IMG/VR virus record: IMGVR_UViG_3300031521_000305
Coordinates: 1 to 27,466 of that record
DNA from: a virus
Direction: 5' to 3' (one strand)
Length of the DNA stretch: 27,466 nt
The first letter of the stretch is position 1, and each line of letters starts with the position of its first letter. Positions 3,691 to 17,240 of the stretch are shown piece by piece. Below the pieces are notes generated by a model. The model did no database searches and was not told the DNA's origin. It saw nothing but the letters and a program-made list of their open reading frames with translations. Made by a program: the position numbers and the translations under genes.

Positions 3691-3711
3691 ATTATTACAG
3701 ATAGGAGAGAT

Positions 3712-4278
3712 ATGACCACTAAATTAGAGTCCGTTAATACAATGCTTTCCTGCATAGGACAAGCACCAATAAACACGCTTGAAGGTACTAAAAGTTCAAA
3801 TATAGTATCAGCAGAAAACATACTAAATGATGAAGTAGAAAATGTGCAATTATCAGGCTGGGATTTTAATACAGAAGAAGATTATCCCCTATTACCTGAT
3901 CAAGATGGTTTTATTAAATTACCATTAAACACATTAAACCTAAAAGTTGAAGATACTTATTATGCAAATCAATACAGCATAAGAGGTACAAAACTGTATG
4001 ACAAAATAAATCATACATATAAAATCGATAAACAATTGAAGGCTAAAATTATATTCAAACTTGAATTTGAAGATCTTTCAACAGTAGTTCAAAAATACAT
4101 AACAATGTCAGCAGCAAATAAGTTTGTTAAAAGAGCATTAGGCTCTCAAACTACTTATGCTTATACAATGGAAGATTTAGCTGAAGCTAGAGCTGCAATG
4201 TTAAAGGCTGAGATTACTGATGGAGAATATAGTTTTATACCTGAATTTCAAAATGGTGAAATAAGGAAGAGTTTATGA
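3712..4278 (+). CDS. Tail tubular protein A, T7 gp11-like
   Basis: Forms the ring joining the portal to the tail nozzle. It is 188 aa (T7 gp11 196 aa). The N-terminus LESVNTMLSCIGQAPINTLE, the SGWDFNTEEDYPL segment and the C-terminal helix with YITMSAANKFVKRALGS followed by DLAEARAAMLKAE are family hallmarks. ATAGGAGAGAT precedes the ATG. Its stop codon overlaps the start of tail tube B as ATGA at 4275, implying translational coupling. Confidence 0.92.
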   Translation: MTTKLESVNTMLSCIGQAPINTLEGTKSSNIVSAENILNDEVENVQLSGWDFNTEEDYPLLPDQDGFIKLPLNTLNLKVEDTYYANQYSIRGTKLYDKINHTYKIDKQLKAKIIFKLEFEDLSTVVQKYITMSAANKFVKRALGSQTTYAYTMEDLAEARAAMLKAEITDGEYSFIPEFQNGEIRKSL

Positions 4279-6587
4279 GCTTAGTACAAGAAACTATACC
4301 AAACTTTATTGGTGGAGTTAATCAACAACCTGATAGATTAAAGTTCACTAACCAACTAAGAACACAGAAAAACTGTTTTGCATCTCCTGTTGATGGCTTG
4401 TTAAAAAGACCACCTACAGAGCATATTGCTAAACTTATGAGTGACAAATTAGTAAATTCTTTCACTCATACTATAGTAAAAGAAGATGAAAAATATAAAG
4501 TGATTCTTACCGGTAGTGATTTGAAGGTGTTTGATTTAGCTGGAAATCCAAAAACTGTTTCATTTCCAAATGGTAAAGATTATATCACAACTGATAGTGC
4601 CTTAAATAATTTAGGTGCAGTATCAATTGGTGACTATACATTTATCCTAAATAAGACAAAAATAACAAGTCTAAAAGATGATTTATATATAAATAATTTT
4701 GCTAGTTCAGCATTGATTTTTGTACGTCAGGGAGATTATTCCTGTGATTATAAAATAAAAATTAATGATACTGAAGTAGCTACATATTCCTCAAACTCAA
4801 CAGATATTGCTACAACAAAAACAACAACAATTGCAGCTGATTTAAAAGCTGATTTAATAGCAGCAGCATCATTACCAGCTGCTAAATGGTCAATATCTGC
4901 AATGAACTCAGTAATATTAATTAAAAATATTGCTAATGAAGATTTTAAAATAAGTGTTTCAGATAGTAATGGTGATAGAGATATTTATTGCTTTTATAAA
5001 GAAACATCAACCAAGGCAGAATTACCCCTTGTTTCCCCTGATGGTTTTATCTTAAAGATAGTAGGTCAGGATAGCAACAAGGCAGATGATTACTTTCTAA
5101 GATTTAAAACAACTGATGGATCTACATTTGGACAAGGTGGATGGCAAGAATGCCCTGCACCCAACATTAAATATAAAATAGATGCTACAACAATGCCTCA
5201 TGCTCTTATCAGACAGGCAGATGGTACATTTAAGTTTGATGTTTTAGATTGGCAAAATAGATTAGCTGGTGATGAAGATTCAGCTAAAACACCTTCATTC
5301 ATTGGTAATACCATTAATGAAGTTTTAACACACAAAGGTAGATTAGCTTTTCTATCTGTTGATAAATCAATCTACAGTGATGTTAATGATATATTCTCAT
5401 TCTTTAAACAAACAACTTTAACAGAATTAGATTCAGATCCTATTGATGTTAATTCAAATTCTAAGATGGTAGATTTAAAACACTCTATTCCTTATGCTGG
5501 TGAATTAATATTAATATCTGAAACCTCAGAATTTACAATCAAGGGTGATAGTATTTTCTCAAGTAAAACTGTATCTATTGATTTAGTTATGGAATATGAA
5601 TGTTCAAAATATTGTAAACCAGTGGGTGCTGGTAATACTGTATTCTTTCCTTTTGAAACTGGTGCTTATGCTGGTGTAAGGGAAATCTATACAACATCCT
5701 CATATACAATTGATGCTAACAACATTACAACTCAAGTACCTAATTATATTCCTACAGGTGTTCACAAGATGGCTGTATCAACTTTAAACAGCTTACTTTG
5801 CTTGTTATCTTCTAATAAGAAAGATACAATTTACACTTATAAGTATTATTATACAGAACAAGGAAAAATACAAAGTAGTTGGGGTGAATGGTTATTTGAA
5901 GATTGTGAAATACTAAATATGGATTTCATACAAAATATCTTATATTTAGTTGTTCAATATTCAGATGGTGTTTATTTAGAAAAGATAGATTTAACTTTAA
6001 CTAAAAAAGATGCTGTTGGTTTTAAAACCTTACTTGATAGAAAAATATATACAAATGCTGGTGTTTTTAATGGTGTGAATACTGTTATCACTCTCCCTTA
6101 TATTCCTGTAAATGATGTTATGGTAATTGATGATAGAGGATTCAACATTGAAGTACTCTCACAAGCAACAAATACAATAACAATTGCTGGGGATTATTCA
6201 AATAAAAACCTAATAGTCGGCTGTAAATACACAGCTGAATGTGAATTACCTACTCTTTTTGTAAGAGAACAATCAGGTACTTCTATAAAAGTTAAAGAAG
6301 GTGTTTTAATGCTTAGAGATTTAACTCTAAGTTATGTAAACTCAGGATACTTCAAAGCTTTGGTTACTCCTTTATATGGAGATACTTCAACTTATGAATT
6401 TACTGGTATTAAGCTTGGAACACCAACTGCACAGTTAGAACAGATACCAATTAGTGATGGTAGTTTTCTAATTCCTATTCTTGCTAAAAATGATGAAGTG
6501 ACTATTACTCTAGTTAATGATAGTTATCTACCTTCATCCTTTATTGCTGCAAGTTGGGAAGGTGATTTCACCGTTAGAGGGCAATAA
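4275..6587 (+). CDS. Tail tubular protein B (nozzle), T7 gp12-like
   Basis: Hexameric tail nozzle through which DNA leaves; fibres attach at the interface with tail tube A. It is 770 aa (T7 gp12 794 aa). The start region SLVQETIPNFIGGVNQQPD is the family signature; DGLLKRPPTEHI, GRLAFLS and the C-terminal SFIAASWEGDFTVRGQ are also typical. It is beta-rich, with no transmembrane segment or enzyme motif. It is coupled to tail tube A by a 4-nt overlap. Confidence 0.93.
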   Translation: MSLVQETIPNFIGGVNQQPDRLKFTNQLRTQKNCFASPVDGLLKRPPTEHIAKLMSDKLVNSFTHTIVKEDEKYKVILTGSDLKVFDLAGNPKTVSFPNGKDYITTDSALNNLGAVSIGDYTFILNKTKITSLKDDLYINNFASSALIFVRQGDYSCDYKIKINDTEVATYSSNSTDIATTKTTTIAADLKADLIAAASLPAAKWSISAMNSVILIKNIANEDFKISVSDSNGDRDIYCFYKETSTKAELPLVSPDGFILKIVGQDSNKADDYFLRFKTTDGSTFGQGGWQECPAPNIKYKIDATTMPHALIRQADGTFKFDVLDWQNRLAGDEDSAKTPSFIGNTINEVLTHKGRLAFLSVDKSIYSDVNDIFSFFKQTTLTELDSDPIDVNSNSKMVDLKHSIPYAGELILISETSEFTIKGDSIFSSKTVSIDLVMEYECSKYCKPVGAGNTVFFPFETGAYAGVREIYTTSSYTIDANNITTQVPNYIPTGVHKMAVSTLNSLLCLLSSNKKDTIYTYKYYYTEQGKIQSSWGEWLFEDCEILNMDFIQNILYLVVQYSDGVYLEKIDLTLTKKDAVGFKTLLDRKIYTNAGVFNGVNTVITLPYIPVNDVMVIDDRGFNIEVLSQATNTITIAGDYSNKNLIVGCKYTAECELPTLFVREQSGTSIKVKEGVLMLRDLTLSYVNSGYFKALVTPLYGDTSTYEFTGIKLGTPTAQLEQIPISDGSFLIPILAKNDEVTITLVNDSYLPSSFIAASWEGDFTVRGQ

Positions 6588-7037: not shown

Positions 7038-7655
7038 ATGTGTGATCCAAGTGCAATGGCGGTAGCTAGTGTTGCTACAACAATAGGAAGTTCTGCTGTA
7101 AATTATTTAGGACAAAGTAAAGCAGCAGGTCAACAAGAAGAGTATAACTCTCAAATGTCAGCAGCTAATGCTGAATACAAATTATTAAATGCTCAAGCTA
7201 CCCAAACAGCGTACTTGGAAGAGATGCACATGTCAGGGATAAGAGAGCAAGAGGATTCTGAAGCAACAGAAGTATCTAATCAACAATCTTATATTCAAAA
7301 TATGCAAGCTAAAGCAACAGCTCAAACATCTGCTGCTGAAGGTGGAGTTACAGGTAATTCTATTCAATCCCTGTTTGCAGGTTATGATAGAGCAAATGCA
7401 ACAAATGACTATATAGCTTCAAGAAACCTTCAACTAAAGGGCTTACAATCACAAGAACAAATGAAAGCATATCAATCTAAAGCTATAAGCTCAATTAATA
7501 TGGCACAACAATATGTACCTACACCTGTTATTCAACCTTCATTGGGTGCTAACTTGTTAGGTGGAATTGGTACTGCTTTGACAACTTATAGTAATTACAC
7601 AACACAAGCGGAACAATCTGCTTATCACAGAGCGATGGGGAGGAATATGCTATAA
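7038..7655 (+). CDS. Internal virion protein B, T7 gp14-like
   Basis: Ejected protein thought to form the outer-membrane part of the DNA channel. It is 205 aa (T7 gp14 196 aa), starting MCDPSAMAVASVATTIGSSAV with a hydrophobic Ala/Ser/Val N-terminal helix. A long Gln/Ala-rich helical middle and a GANLLGGIGTALTTYSNY segment near the C-terminus follow. The order gp13-gp14-gp15-gp16 is preserved. Its TAA overlaps the next ATG as TAATG at 7653-7657. Confidence 0.85.
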   Translation: MCDPSAMAVASVATTIGSSAVNYLGQSKAAGQQEEYNSQMSAANAEYKLLNAQATQTAYLEEMHMSGIREQEDSEATEVSNQQSYIQNMQAKATAQTSAAEGGVTGNSIQSLFAGYDRANATNDYIASRNLQLKGLQSQEQMKAYQSKAISSINMAQQYVPTPVIQPSLGANLLGGIGTALTTYSNYTTQAEQSAYHRAMGRNML

Positions 7656-9874
7656 TGGCAGATCAAAAAAGAATAGCTCCTGATGCTATACAAACCGGTC
7701 AGCTTGTACCTGAAGCAGCCCCTACAGATACTAAGGTGCAATATCAACCTAGAGCTGTAGCACAGCCTGATTTGACACAAGCTAAAACAATGATAGATAC
7801 TGCTGAGGGTGTATTAAAATTCTCTCAAGGTGCTTTAGCATTTGATAATGTATTGAGAACACAAGCAGTAGATACAGCTACAACAGCTTATGATATGACA
7901 GAGGCTAATGCTTCTAATAAAAAAGATTGGAAAGATGTATCACAAAACTTACATGGGATGGCTAAATGGAATCCTTATGTACAAGATTCATATAAATCAC
8001 TTGTAGCTAAAGATGTTTTTGAAAAAGGTATTTTAACCTTAGAAGGAACACCAAACTTAGAAACTAAATCTCCACAAGAAGTGGAAAAGATGGTTACAGA
8101 TATTAAAAAAGGTATCTATGGTGAGTTAAATGAATCAGGATTACAACCTTCTAATTATGAAAAATATGTTAGTAGCTTTGATGATTATGTTGCAGGTAAA
8201 CTACAGAAACATGCTTCAGCTAATGCTGAGTATGTCTATACAAAATTAGCAATACCTAAAATGTCACATCAAGCTGGTTTAGATCTTATTAATGGGAACT
8301 ATTCAACAGATCCTATTGAAAAAGAACAACAAATGACTGCATCTTTGCAGAAAACAGTTGATAATCTTAATTCTACTGGTGTTCCAATAACGGATCAAGC
8401 TTTAATACTTAAATCAGCACTTCACCAATATATTGGATATGATCCAACTGGTGCTAAAGAATCTCAAATTATGTCAGCTATGGCTAATGTAAAACTAGGA
8501 GATGCTCAACCTCAAGAAGTTGTAGCTCCTGCTACTGCTGATGATGCTAAAGAAGCTACACCGATTAGTGCTGATGGAACTGAATCAACAACCCCTGTAG
8601 ATGCTACTTTGCAAACTGGTGTAACAAAACCAGCTACAAAAACTAATAGCTTATCTATATTTGACATTGATCCTACTTTTAGAGATACATTACATAATGA
8701 TATAAAAGCAGCTAAAGATGAAATATATGAAGATAAGGTAAGAGATTATAACTATAAGGAATTGGATAAAAAAATCAAAGTTGAAGATGCTTTAACAGAA
8801 CTTGTTAAACTTCAAATGTCTTTTGGAAACAATCCTACACCTCAACAACAACAACAATTAAAATCAATGGCTGTGACACTAACTCAACAAGGTGGACTAT
8901 ATACAGAATATGGTAATCTGCTTGGTTCATTGAATACTGTGTCAGGTCAACAATCTAACTTACTATCATCAAATACAGATGCAAATACTTATAATAGATT
9001 AATGATAAAAGCTTATGATAAAACTCTTACAAAGGGAGATATTTTAAGTGGAATGAATAATGGATTATTGAGTTCTGCTTCAGCTAAAGATTTAATGGGA
9101 ATGAGAGAAGGTAATATAAAAGAGGGTGAACAAGATGCTTATGCAATAGCTAATGTTTATTCTAAAGGTGTTGATACTTATTTAACATCTCCTGAAGGTA
9201 AAAGAATGACTCCTGAATCTGTTTCTCAAATAGAAAATGAACGTAATCAGGCTATGGTTGAAGTTATAAAAACAAAAGATTATAAAAAATTCAATACCAA
9301 GATGGAAAAATTATATACACTGGCTCCAAAACTTGAACAAATGAAGACACAACAAAAAGGTACTGTACAAAAAATAGTAACAACCGGAAAACCTGTAAAA
9401 GGTGCTAATGATGAATATTTAATTAAAAAACTTAATTTTGTACAACCTCAAAGTATTACTTCAAAAGGTTCTCAATATAAATATACAAATGATACAAAAA
9501 TAACTTCATACGTAGGTCAAAGAGTTGCACCAAAAGCTGGTGCTTCAACATGGCACAAAGGATATGATGTAGCTGCTCCTGAAGGTTCTTTGATTAAAAA
9601 TAAAATAGGGAATGGTAAAGTAAGTGCAATGGGCTATGAAAAAGGCTGGGGAAACTATATTGTAATTGATTATGGTAACAATAGACAAGCTTTATATGGT
9701 CACTTATCTGCTTATAAAAAGGGAATAGGTGTTGGTTCAACTGTACGAACTAATGATACATTTGGCTTTGTTGGACACAGTGGAAATACTACTGGAAATG
9801 AAGTACACACAGAGTTTTGGAAAAATTATACAATAGTTAATGCAACGGACTATTTTAAAGGGAGTAATATTTAA
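7655..9874 (+). CDS. Internal virion protein C, T7 gp15-like, with C-terminal M23 peptidase-like domain
   Basis: A 739-aa core/ejection protein in the T7 gene 15 position (gp15 747 aa). Most of the protein is helical and polar, with an acidic Ala/Thr/Pro linker around residues 285-330. The last 120 residues look like an M23 (LytM-type) peptidoglycan endopeptidase: H634-KGY-D638 fits HxxxD, YGH683LS fits the next conserved His, and GHSGNTTGNEVHTEF (716-720 EVHTE) fits the usual HxH motif. The first His of HxH is Glu716 here; the second, H718, is kept. In T7 the wall-cutting domain is a transglycosylase in gp16, which I do not see in the gp16-like protein below, so wall cleavage during DNA entry appears to have moved to this protein. 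Whether the Glu variant is catalytic is open. Confidence 0.85.
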   Translation: MADQKRIAPDAIQTGQLVPEAAPTDTKVQYQPRAVAQPDLTQAKTMIDTAEGVLKFSQGALAFDNVLRTQAVDTATTAYDMTEANASNKKDWKDVSQNLHGMAKWNPYVQDSYKSLVAKDVFEKGILTLEGTPNLETKSPQEVEKMVTDIKKGIYGELNESGLQPSNYEKYVSSFDDYVAGKLQKHASANAEYVYTKLAIPKMSHQAGLDLINGNYSTDPIEKEQQMTASLQKTVDNLNSTGVPITDQALILKSALHQYIGYDPTGAKESQIMSAMANVKLGDAQPQEVVAPATADDAKEATPISADGTESTTPVDATLQTGVTKPATKTNSLSIFDIDPTFRDTLHNDIKAAKDEIYEDKVRDYNYKELDKKIKVEDALTELVKLQMSFGNNPTPQQQQQLKSMAVTLTQQGGLYTEYGNLLGSLNTVSGQQSNLLSSNTDANTYNRLMIKAYDKTLTKGDILSGMNNGLLSSASAKDLMGMREGNIKEGEQDAYAIANVYSKGVDTYLTSPEGKRMTPESVSQIENERNQAMVEVIKTKDYKKFNTKMEKLYTLAPKLEQMKTQQKGTVQKIVTTGKPVKGANDEYLIKKLNFVQPQSITSKGSQYKYTNDTKITSYVGQRVAPKAGASTWHKGYDVAAPEGSLIKNKIGNGKVSAMGYEKGWGNYIVIDYGNNRQALYGHLSAYKKGIGVGSTVRTNDTFGFVGHSGNTTGNEVHTEFWKNYTIVNATDYFKGSNI

Positions 9875-14456: not shown

Positions 14457-16088
14457 ATGAGTTTAGCAAAATATTCTACTACATATAATTCAGGGGATCC
14501 GATTTTTCAGATCCCTTTTCCTTATATTAAAAAGGATTATATTGAAGTATATATAAATGGAACACAAACAACTGCTTTTAGTTGGTTAAATGAAGGCTCA
14601 ATAAGACTTGATGTTAATCCTGTAAGTGGTTCAAAAGTTTTAATTAAAAGAAATACAAATAAAATAACTAGGGATGTAGTTTTTACAAACCTAACTATAT
14701 TGGATAAAGATAGTCAAAATATATCAGCAGAACAAGTATTTCACATGGTTCAAGAGGATTTTGACAATAACGAAGATTTTGTTAAAATAACAAGCACAGT
14801 TTCTGATAGTTTGGCTGAAATTGCAGATCAAGTAGTTGTAGCAACTGAAAAAGTAACTGAAGCAGAAGCTGCTGCTGATACTGCAACGACTCAAGCTAAC
14901 CTTGCTGTAACTAAAGCACAAGAGGCTGTAGCTTCAGCTGCTAGTTTATCAGATGGAACAGAAACTATTAAAGGTAGAGTTAGATATTCTACATCTGTGG
15001 AAGCATTGGCTGGAACAAATGATGATTCAACAATGACTCCTTTGAAAACAAAAGCATTCATGGATTATATGGATTTAATTTGGCATAATACAAAAGCTGA
15101 ATATAAAGATTTTCTCATTTCAGGTTCTACAAAATCAGCAATCAAAATAAGAAAAAATACATATATTAAATGTAATTTATCAAACAAAGATTATAAACTA
15201 AGACAGCTTGTAGATTTAGAGTTTGATGCTATTGCAAAGCTTGATACTGGAACAGCACTTGTTGCAGCTAAAGATTATTCAGTCTATTTAATTGAAAATG
15301 CAGCTAGTAATAATGGATTAGATTTTAAAGTATCTTTAAATGGTACATATCCAACAGGGTACACAGCGATTAACTCATATAAGATTGGTGGATTCCATAC
15401 TTTATGTGTAGCTGTTACTTCTGCAAATGCTCCGGCATTGGTTGATACTAACCTTTGGGCTTCACATCCTGCGATTGGATACAATGCTGGTGATATTATC
15501 CCTAATTCAATTTGGACTTTACTTCATAGACCTATTTCAAACCCTAATGGTATGGCTTATGTTGATAAAATCAATTTATGGGTGGATATTTATTTACAAA
15601 GTGGAACTGGATTATTAACTGCTTCTGCTTTTGGTGCTACAACAACTGATACAAGAACTCAAATTCAACATCAATGGGATATGGCTTTAGTAAATAAGAA
15701 ACTTGCTACTGATAACAACTTCTTAGTCTTTGCTGAAGGTTCAAATCAGAAAACAAATATATTTGGATCTGTTGATGTTGTTACAACTGGTGGACACTTA
15801 GATACATCCAGTAAACGTATGATCTCAGGATATTTCATTGAAGATTGCTGTGGATTCCTATGGCAATGGCTAGATGAAATTGCTGCTAATGGTGGTTCAG
15901 GATGGGTTGCTTATGGTGATGAAGCCACAAGAGGTCAATCTTATGGAATGCCTTATTGTCTTTTGGCGGGTCGTGCTTGGGATGGTGCTACTTCTTGCGG
16001 TTCTCGGTCTCGTAATGGTAATGCTGTGCGTTCTGCTGTTGATGCTAGTTTCGGCGGTCGTGGTGTGAGCCTTTCAATGTTTAAATAA
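14457..16088 (+). CDS. Tail fibre protein: T7 gp17-type N-terminus, DGR-diversified lectin-like C-terminus
   Basis: Host-binding fibre of 543 aa. Residues 1-150 match the T7 gp17 anchor: YSTTYNSGDPIFQIPFPYIKKDYIEVYING, and the segment around AEQVFHMVQEDFDNNEDF. An Ala/Thr/Glu coiled coil (about 125-165) leads to a beta-rich shaft. The last ~90 residues (FLWQWLDEIAANGGSGWVAY..., GMPYCLLAGRAWDGATSCGSRS, GGRGVSLSMFK) look like the C-type-lectin/formylglycine-type fold found in DGR target proteins. Residues 501-537 are encoded by the variable repeat. Residues changed relative to the template through adenine positions include A507, G510, G515, R517, A523, A527, D529, S531, F532 and G534. It is translated from a ribosome site at 14448-14453. 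Confidence 0.9.
   Translation: MSLAKYSTTYNSGDPIFQIPFPYIKKDYIEVYINGTQTTAFSWLNEGSIRLDVNPVSGSKVLIKRNTNKITRDVVFTNLTILDKDSQNISAEQVFHMVQEDFDNNEDFVKITSTVSDSLAEIADQVVVATEKVTEAEAAADTATTQANLAVTKAQEAVASAASLSDGTETIKGRVRYSTSVEALAGTNDDSTMTPLKTKAFMDYMDLIWHNTKAEYKDFLISGSTKSAIKIRKNTYIKCNLSNKDYKLRQLVDLEFDAIAKLDTGTALVAAKDYSVYLIENAASNNGLDFKVSLNGTYPTGYTAINSYKIGGFHTLCVAVTSANAPALVDTNLWASHPAIGYNAGDIIPNSIWTLLHRPISNPNGMAYVDKINLWVDIYLQSGTGLLTASAFGATTTDTRTQIQHQWDMALVNKKLATDNNFLVFAEGSNQKTNIFGSVDVVTTGGHLDTSSKRMISGYFIEDCCGFLWQWLDEIAANGGSGWVAYGDEATRGQSYGMPYCLLAGRAWDGATSCGSRSRNGNAVRSAVDASFGGRGVSLSMFK
15958..16068 (+). repeat. DGR variable repeat (VR) at the 3' end of the tail-fibre gene
   Basis: 111 nt alignable without gaps to the template repeat at 16132-16242 (offset 174). 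There are 17 differences. Sixteen are at template adenines (13 A to G, 2 A to C, 1 A to T) and one is G in the template versus C here (15972). The last 12 bases, 16057-16068, are identical to the template end and would serve as the initiation-of-homology part. Unlike the Bordetella phage system, I see no GC-rich hairpin just downstream; the following bases are AT-rich. Confidence 0.93.
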
Positions 16089-16104
16089 TTAATAAATAAA
16101 ATTC

Positions 16105-16305
16105 AGGTTATGAGTTATGTAAAAAAAGACAGTCTTTTAGCAGGTGGTAATTGGGATAATGCTACTTCTTGCAGTTCTCAGTCTCGTAATGGTAATAATG
16201 TACGTTCTACTGTTAATGCTAATATCGGCAGTCGTGGTGTGATACGGATACTCTGCGAATACTTAGCAATATTCGTAGGAGTTTATTTGGCTGAACTCAT
16301 AACCT
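16105..16305 (+). ncRNA. Candidate structured DGR template RNA, closed by a 12-bp stem
   Basis: The template repeat lies inside a larger inverted repeat: AGGTTATGAGTT (16105-16116) is perfectly complementary to AACTCATAACCT (16294-16305). Between the template end and the closing arm, 16252-16261 pairs with 16270-16279 over 10 bp (two G-U pairs) around an 8-nt loop. This gives a 201-nt RNA with the template in an open region, a 3' hairpin and a terminal stem. Known DGR template RNAs need a spacer 3' of the template for cDNA synthesis; the hairpin is in that place. Promoter and ends of such an RNA are not identifiable; it may be processed from the late transcript. Confidence 0.6.
16132..16242 (+). 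repeat. DGR template repeat (TR)
   Basis: 111 nt with 25 adenines, of which 16 differ in the variable repeat. Many adenines lie in AAT codons when read in the fibre frame, the usual design that lets one template codon yield many amino acids. The template keeps an open frame in the fibre register (AGGNWDNATSC, then SSQSRNGNNV), but as non-coding template this is expected from its origin as a fibre copy. It begins 63 bases past the fibre stop codon. Confidence 0.93.
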
Positions 16306-16378
16306 TGTCCTTGGGGCAAAATACAAAACTCAATGGAGTGTAGATTCTTATTAGTAAAGCAATTGAAAGTGAGAGGAT

Positions 16379-16585
16379 TTGGTAAGGAAAAGAACAGCAA
16401 CAAGAGTTAAAAAGAGACTTCCAGCTTTAGTTAGGAAGTTTAAAAATGAGGAACTATCTCAGGATAGATTCAGATCTTGCATTGAATCCACACTTGGTTG
16501 GATTAAGTGGGCTGATACTCATAATTTCCAACTAAAAACAAAACTATTAGAAATGAAAGAAATGGCATATAGTCAGGAGAAATAA
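16379..16585 (+). pseudogene. Probable C-terminal remnant of the DGR reverse transcriptase
   Basis: A 68-aa basic ORF directly after the template RNA, where a DGR reverse transcriptase of roughly 300-400 aa is expected. The sequence LVRKRTATRVKKRLPALVRKF, then EELSQDRFRSCIESTLGWIKWADTHN, fits the tail of group-II-like/DGR RTs: a basic RxxxRLxxL helix, an acidic turn, then a helix with a SxLGxxKxADT motif. None of the catalytic palm (YxDD or the DGR-type variant) can fit in the about 135 bases between the template and this ORF. The start is unclear: TTG at 16379 has GAGAGG too close to be ideal, and a stop codon lies just upstream in frame. The ORF itself is intact and its TAA abuts the next ATG, so a retained short protein is an alternative to a decaying remnant. 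Confidence 0.55.
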
Positions 16586-16858
16586 ATGTATATATTAAAT
16601 ACAAAGCAAGATTATCTAAATTGCTTGGAGCTTAATCCTAGTGATACTAAATCAAGGCTTCAGAATTTATTAGATAATCGCTTTAATTGGTTTGATGTAG
16701 CTGTACTAGCAACTGCTGATAACGCTGTTATAGATGCTACACACAGAATTATTGGTAGTGATGAATTACTCTATCAAGAATATAAAGAAGATTCTAATGC
16801 ACTTATGTTTGGGCTGGGATTCACTGTTGAAGAGATAGAAGGATTAATAAATGGATAA
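16586..16858 (+). CDS. Small acidic protein downstream of the fibre gene, unknown function
   Basis: 90 aa, beginning MYILNTKQDYLNCLELNPSD and containing NRFNWFDVAVLATADNAVIDATHRIIG. No enzyme motif, membrane segment or cysteine pair typical of zinc binding is seen. AGGAG lies upstream; the start abuts the stop of the RT-like ORF, and its end overlaps the next gene by 8 bases, so it belongs to a translationally coupled fibre-distal cassette. It is too short and not basic enough to be recognised as the DGR accessory protein Avd, although the position would allow it. A fibre accessory or chaperone is possible by location only. Confidence 0.65.
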   Translation: MYILNTKQDYLNCLELNPSDTKSRLQNLLDNRFNWFDVAVLATADNAVIDATHRIIGSDELLYQEYKEDSNALMFGLGFTVEEIEGLING

Positions 16859-17240
16859 TGTTAAATTAAGATTTGATTCATCAACAGGAAAAGTTGGTAA
16901 AACATATCCTGAATCTATGGATGTTGCAGAACCATACTTGACAATAACAGTTGAACAAAGCAATGAAATAAGCTCACAAGCAGATAAAGTTTTCTTTGTT
17001 GTTGCCGGTGAATTAACATCTAAAAACAAAGCTGATATAGAAGCTGAAGAATCTATACAAAAACAAAAAGAAATTAAAAGAGCTGAATTACAAAATCAAA
17101 TTGATGAACTTGAAAAGTCACAAGCTAGACCTCTAAGAGAATTAAGACTAGATACTACAAATCAATATTCACAAGCTAAATTGGTTGGTATTGATAATCA
17201 GATTGTAAACCTAAGAACACAAATTAAGGAGATAAATTAA
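16851..17240 (+). CDS. Fibre-associated protein with C-terminal coiled coil, possibly fibre assembly
   Basis: 129 aa. The N-terminal half looks beta-rich (VKLRFDSSTGKVGKTYPE, PYLTITVEQ, KVFFVVAGEL); residues about 58-95 form a charged helix (EAEESIQKQKEIKRAELQNQIDELE) and the end is another helix with QIVNLRTQIKEIN. This N-terminal beta plus C-terminal helix layout is common in phage proteins encoded next to fibre genes, some of which act in fibre assembly; I do not recognise a specific family. Its stop overlaps the next start as TAATG at 17238-17242. Confidence 0.6.
   Translation: MDNVKLRFDSSTGKVGKTYPESMDVAEPYLTITVEQSNEISSQADKVFFVVAGELTSKNKADIEAEESIQKQKEIKRAELQNQIDELEKSQARPLRELRLDTTNQYSQAKLVGIDNQIVNLRTQIKEIN

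Follow-up and report, generated by a model that had tools for sequence, protein, structure and literature searches.

DGRs in which the RT is inactivated beside an intact VR/TR pair have already been reported (Schillinger et al. 2012, PMC3521204, Figure 4). In cyanobacteria, it was suggested earlier that diversification components are perhaps removed after a good variant has been found (PMC7517822), and some Treponema denticola isolates lack the core DGR (PMC4891356). The DNA analyzed here (the window), a 27,466-b linear contig from IMG/VR, begins within an open ORF. It shares an Mtd-type target and an A-biased VR/TR pair with the BPP-1 DGR (mtd, TR, brt), but differs from it in that the fingers and palm of the RT are absent. 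As in the cases of Schillinger et al., the RT is broken while VR and TR are intact and A-biased; the lesions described there were of the nonsense, insertion-element, and frameshift types, whereas in the window a deletion took the fingers and palm and left the thumb. The T. denticola isolates and the window are alike in that target genes outlast the diversifying machinery, but both RT and TR are gone from these isolates, whereas the window keeps the TR and the spacer that follows it. With an RT lesion beside an intact A-biased VR/TR pair, the locus in the window joins the inactivated DGRs already known, here by deletion. The more interesting part is the recurrence of such RT deletions in Mtd-type phage DGRs, of which no earlier report was found among the open-access papers searched.

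The Phage and Its Likely Host

Family matches and ORFs of the window (large structural ORFs in T7-like order, a tail-fibre/Mtd protein, an M15 endolysin, and a tyrosine integrase) identify the phage as a predicted temperate T7-like podovirus. Small and large terminase genes and an early region were also recognized, and the remaining structural ORFs look intact. The phage is of gut type. Its host is likely a member of the Gastranaerophilales, since the closest relatives of the variable protein outside viral contigs sit in Candidatus Gastranaerophilales MAGs and in unnamed bins (L091-L094). The window DNA had no nucleotide match in the phage DNA collection, and pattern scans for near-identical contigs returned none. 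The nearest terminase relative found (73%) was L010, in which the large terminase gene is interrupted by an insert (3691-6140) encoding a GIY-YIG endonuclease, likely an intron; an Mtd-type protein was not found within the fetched stretch of this contig.

Target Gene and A-Biased Repeats

14457-16088, + strand: DGR target, tail-fibre-type variable protein of 543 aa (T7 tail fibre N-terminal domain and Mtd domain)
15958-16068, + strand: variable repeat (VR), from a 111-nt ungapped alignment with the TR
16132-16242, + strand: template repeat (TR), from the same alignment, with A-specific mismatches

The variable protein, homologues of which occur across many DGR loci, matched the Pfam families Phage_T7_tail (2.4e-13) and mtd_2nd (3.7e-16), and the VR lies at the 3' end of its gene, as for the Mtd-type variable domain of a functional DGR. 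Over the 111 gap-free nucleotides, VR and TR differ by 17 mismatches, 16 of which fall at TR adenines; 16 of the 25 TR adenines are thus changed in the VR, compared with a single one of the 86 non-A positions. Mismatches lying nearly all at TR adenines are expected of a functional DGR, and this bias indicates that an RT formerly acted at the locus. A VR-adjacent cruciform of the BPP-1 type (an inverted repeat of 7-10 bp within ~35 bp after the VR) was not found in the window, and the 60 nt downstream of the VR contained no perfect stem of at least 5 bp. This absence is not specific to the deletion, because the cruciform is likewise missing from the close RT-positive relatives L001, L013, L015, and L092.

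A Remnant of the RT Gene at a Deletion Junction

16371-16376, + strand: Shine-Dalgarno sequence (GAGAGG) that once served the RT gene and now ends only 2 nt upstream of the TTG of the remnant
16377-16387, + strand: deletion junction with ~820 nt of RT sequence gone, placed by blastn blocks and by side-by-side comparison with L171; the exact base can be fixed only with the parent allele
16379-16585, + strand: remnant ORF of 68 aa, C-terminal thumb domain of a DGR RT (PHROG 1423, 8ub7_A profile, L171 RT)
16586-16858, + strand: 90-aa gene, function unassigned; in many related DGR loci it adjoins the variable protein or the RT

The 68-aa ORF had been read, from the sequence only, as resembling the tail of a group-II-like RT, and an HMM search of its product was proposed as a check. 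This search returned an RT family and not an unrelated one (PHROG 1423, reverse transcriptase, E=3.9e-5, profile positions 382-433), and tblastn aligned the ORF with the C-termini of intact RTs adjoining homologous variable proteins (E ~1e-18 to 1e-29), with 55-61% identity to the closest of them and 61% to the RT tail of L171. The resemblance to an RT tail thus held, but the group-II-like label did not, as the product is homologous to RTs of the DGR group, which is related to, yet distinct from, group II intron RTs. Assignment to an unrelated family was discarded: the lone Pfam match, EF-hand_14, was weak (E 0.088) and below the cut-off, and the RT match was clearly better.

A profile built from 22 related tails matched residues 271-315 of 8ub7_A (E=5.4e-5), which we take to be the RT of the BPP-1 DGR, and nothing else convincingly. 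The structural model of the L171 RT (pLDDT 92.8) had the same nearest PDB entry (TM 0.89, E 1.8e-24), and BPP-1 brt and the L171 RT are 34.7% identical over 321 residues. On this model the 68-aa ORF aligns with the final fifth of the RT, residues 272-338, where four C-terminal helices form the thumb domain. Modelled alone with AF2, the ORF product was all-helical (pLDDT 85); a Foldseek search found nothing significant for the isolated thumb. Six residues invariant among the 22 related tails are kept (R3, T6, S37, G40, W41, and N49), and the product departs from these tails at the near-invariant K8 and G24.

Searches of the window with PF00078, with seven RT finger/palm regions (tblastn), and with HMMs over all six frames, unfiltered, revealed no RT palm, which bears out the earlier statement that no palm-domain motif occurs elsewhere in it. 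The palm with SQ motif and YxDD that characterizes a DGR RT is absent from the window, which holds only the thumb of a DGR-clade RT gene in cis. Together with the TR/VR pair and the PHROG 1423 and tblastn matches, these searches confirm the sequence-only reading of a DGR without its RT, of which just a C-terminal RT-like tail is left. As the window is a linear fragment, an RT in the unseen part of the genome is conceivable.

Comparison with RT-positive relatives located the missing segment. In L001, L003, L004, and L006-L009, a full RT, which has YCDD and an IGN..SQ motif, lies downstream of an Mtd-type homologue, and the window ORF aligns to the end of these RTs. Two IMG/VR records, L171 (3300017520_000029) and L172 (3300029965_000056), which are mutually identical over 5,490 b, carry in order the variable protein, TR, spacer, a 338-aa RT, a 90-aa gene, a 129-aa gene, terS, and terL; from the gp16-like gene (L171) to terL, the order is that of the window, but the RT is complete. 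By blastn, window 15097-16380 corresponds to L171 8176-9513 and window 16383-17051 to L171 10336-11008. The L171 segment of ~820 nt between the two blocks, which is missing from the window, contains the RT start codon and the first 271 codons.

The RT starts 7-9 nt after GTGAGAGG in L091 and L171, whereas the window reads GTGAGAGG-AT-TTGGTAAGG. The TTG of the 68-aa ORF corresponds to the codon for the first thumb Leu of relatives (LVRK, LLRK). The ORF looks like a remnant, because this TTG is a former internal Leu codon lying 2 nt after the old Shine-Dalgarno sequence, and it may be poorly translated, as it lacks the RT start codon and its Shine-Dalgarno spacing is short. Comparison with L171 and L091 also led to the rejection of an in-frame fusion of the RT start to the thumb, the start codon itself being lost and the TTG being a former Leu codon. 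The left break lies at or after 16380, since the 3' strand of the upstream hairpin extends to this position, and a shared short TTGGTAA may have guided the deletion.

Homologues of the 90-aa gene (32-53% identity) were found in L001, L003, L004, and L006-L009, and also in L171. The intact relatives differ from BPP-1 in having no gene between TR and RT (no Avd was recognized) and, often, an SSB-like gene after the RT. This gene of ~100 aa lies between the RT and the 90-aa gene in L003 (8272-8595), L006 (8972-9250), and L008 (2974-3276), and is fused to the RT in some loci, such as L001 (6175-6501). It had no Pfam assignment and matched PHROG 19665, function unassigned, so that calling its product SSB-like is a guess. 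The gene is missing from the window, L171, and L091; a second deletion in the window was thus discarded, L171 and L091 being likewise without it.

The TR-to-RT Spacer and Its Hairpin Are Retained

16289-16329, + strand: conserved spacer element of the template RNA (GGCTGAACTCATAACCTTGTCCTTGGGGCAAAATACAAAAC), conserved 3' of the TR in RT-positive relatives
16342-16380, + strand: hairpin with conserved TTAGTA...GAAA segments, just 5' of the RT start in relatives, identified by covariation

The interval from the TR end to the 68-aa ORF had been described as about 135 bases without a gene. The distance (136 nt) was right, but the stretch is not empty: it is the conserved TR-to-RT DGR spacer of intact relatives, with which it shares the motifs GGCTGAA..ATAACCTTGTC and GGCAAAAYAC. 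Across 32 related loci, 88.9% of the cells of the hairpin were paired, compared with 38-51% in slid controls; 149 cells were changed on both sides, which none of 500 shuffles reached, and the covariation was 1.013 versus 0.268 in shuffles. Reading of the alignment by eye showed that the window keeps the pairing, with an A-T to T-A change relative to L171 and L091 (columns 9/45), and that the window and its closest relatives pair in a two-base-bulged register. The case for RNA structure rests on this covariation across loci, because single-sequence folding of the window spacer and hairpin was no better than that of shuffles (z -0.94 and 0.30). A search of the window against Rfam matched no family. 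With its conserved motifs and covarying hairpin, the window keeps the TR-adjacent spacer RNA of a functional DGR. Invariant TAGTA and GAA segments were observed in the hairpin before the DGR RT in the window and 31 related loci, which are Mtd-type phage DGRs.

Recurrent RT Deletion in Related DGR Loci

Related loci were gathered by their variable protein and not by the RT, from the best 80 matches per collection, giving 87 non-redundant Mtd-type loci that have an A-biased TR and extend far enough downstream; all are single assemblies, MAG contigs among them. The RT was deleted or gutted in 11 of the 87 loci sampled, the window included (~1 in 8). The other 76 were scored as RT-positive by an RT match after the TR, which does not prove the intactness of each RT.

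The RT-deleted relatives retain varied pieces (the RT N-terminus, the SSB-like C-terminus, or nothing). About 90 RT codons are left in L020; L030 has 42 RT codons joined in frame with the SSB-like C-terminus, and L103 has 81 joined in frame with the SSB-like protein. The RT is deleted or gutted in L021, L032, L033, and L039, and in L033 the TR is cut as well. In L060, the RT N-terminus is followed by other sequence, perhaps through a rearrangement, and L104 and L105 carry the same RT deletion with a cut TR. L091, from a bacterial MAG, encodes a 339-aa DGR RT ORF (7331-8350) with an in-frame loss of ~39 residues, including YxDD; the parts flanking this gap are each 82-86% identical to the L171 RT. 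PF00078 detected no RT anywhere on the phage contigs of L020, L021, L030, L032, and L039 (38-57 kb).

The junctions were different in all 11 loci, including the most similar pair, L030 and L032, for which a shared ancestral deletion was thus ruled out. Selection for in-frame RT remnants was not supported either, as the remnants are in frame in L030, L103, and L091 and out of frame in L020, L032, and L039. Non-A mismatches between TR and VR amounted to 7 of 869 positions in the pooled RT-deleted loci and 40 of 7046 in the RT-positive loci (Fisher p=0.35). Because the RT-deleted loci show no excess of such mismatches, their deletions appear young, with little time elapsed since homing stopped.

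The MAG contigs L104 (4680-7956) and L105 (1-3278) differ by 10 bases within an otherwise identical stretch of 2.1 kb (L105 1163-3268); 7 of these bases lie in the TR-covered VR, all at TR adenines, and 3 just past the end of the truncated TR. Since the remaining TR cannot template these 3 bases, the VR must have come from an RT-positive sibling (through recombination or by trans homing), unless a mixed population went into the assembly of the bins, and the differences are not proof of trans activity. Upstream of L105 1162, the two contigs are ~5% different, a mosaic.

Origin and Meaning of the RT-Less Locus

We consider it most probable (about 84%) that one recent deletion took the fingers and palm of the RT, leaving the DGR inactive in cis and the thumb as a remnant. 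Of the internal deletion with a decaying DGR that had been proposed from the sequence, the deletion is upheld by the syntenic RT-positive L171 and L172, but a long decay is not, as the lesion looks young. In the proposed sequence of events, a single deletion of ~820 nt would have removed the RT start codon, fingers, and palm (~271 codons), with VR, TR, spacer, and RT-proximal hairpin all retained upstream, while the coding sequence of the thumb would have stayed open by accident, its product probably without function. With no RT, no cDNA would be made from the window copy, so that the receptor-binding protein would stay at the last rewritten VR. The RT-less form may persist because a phage with a good fibre would lose little, or even gain, by ending the rewriting.

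Coexistence of RT-positive and RT-deleted genomes in a mixed population, of which the assembler kept the deleted path, is compatible with this recent deletion and is a possibility that we hold with some reserve. A standing polymorphism would produce young, terminal, and independent deletions such as the 11 among the 87 loci; the VR differs between the otherwise identical deleted copies L104 and L105, and both searchable relatives, L171 and L172, are RT-positive. However, exact-pattern scans gave no other contig with the TR of the window, in collections that may omit near records. An assembly artefact, in which the RT segment was dropped from an RT-positive phage, is very improbable. The window is a metagenome contig in which misjoining at short repeats could in principle occur (TTGGTAA, for example, lies both at the RT start and in the thumb), but no more than ~7 nt of sequence is shared at the junction, well short of common assembly k-mer sizes, and 10 other loci, MAGs included, show similar deletions.

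A non-autonomous DGR, with TR and VR served by an RT acting in trans from a prophage, a co-infecting relative, or a host element, seems improbable to us. All RNA and target parts are kept in the window, homing of the BPP-1 DGR works in trans from donor plasmids (PMC3240598; PMC12875486), related RT-positive cassettes occur in the order of the likely host (3 of 192 genomes, RTs 58-60% identical), and all 10 bases that distinguish the RT-deleted L104 and L105 lie in or directly beside the aligned VR. However, young deletions explain the low non-A mismatch equally well, the 3 bases beyond the truncated TR call for a full-length TR or recombination with an RT-positive sibling, and the pattern could also arise when a mixed population is assembled into MAGs; other RT-deleted loci, such as L033 and L104, have moreover lost part of the TR. 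The wider proposal that RT-deleted DGRs are a standing non-autonomous form, in which phages lose the RT time and again while retaining template, spacer, and target, and are diversified by the RTs of related prophages or co-infecting siblings, is similarly doubtful; if true, tropism variation would be shared at the population level. That the thumb fragment was kept as a protein with a separate function, for instance in template-RNA binding, is very unlikely. Its open frame and its predicted folding alone as helices would suit such a protein, and the conserved invariant residues may also fit a retained function, which counts against the deletion remnant. However, this suggestion from the sequence found no support: the fragments retained by RT-deleted relatives, where there are any, are different ones, the RT start codon is lost, translation could begin only at the TTG that follows the Shine-Dalgarno sequence by 2 nt, and the protein search found no other thumb-only locus.

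If one recent deletion is the correct reading, a single event can switch off the targeted hypermutation of a phage. The survey suggests that RT loss occurs often in Mtd-type phage DGRs and that the RT-deleted copies are young; RT loss would then usually be a dead end, or RT-less and RT-positive genomes would mix. The cost of mutator upkeep and the possible sharing of RTs in trans thereby become testable.

Mtd-Type Loci without TR or RT

Downstream of the Mtd-type protein, L047/L048 (5903-6514), L070, and L127 have an SSB-like gene, complete or in part, and then the 90-aa gene; they lack both TR and RT and are probably older stages of DGR loss. In Bartonella, no TR or RT was found near the Mtd-type loci (L106-L108, L115, L121, and others); several Mtd-type genes occur per genome, five loci in one of them, and each is followed by a homologue of the 90-aa gene.
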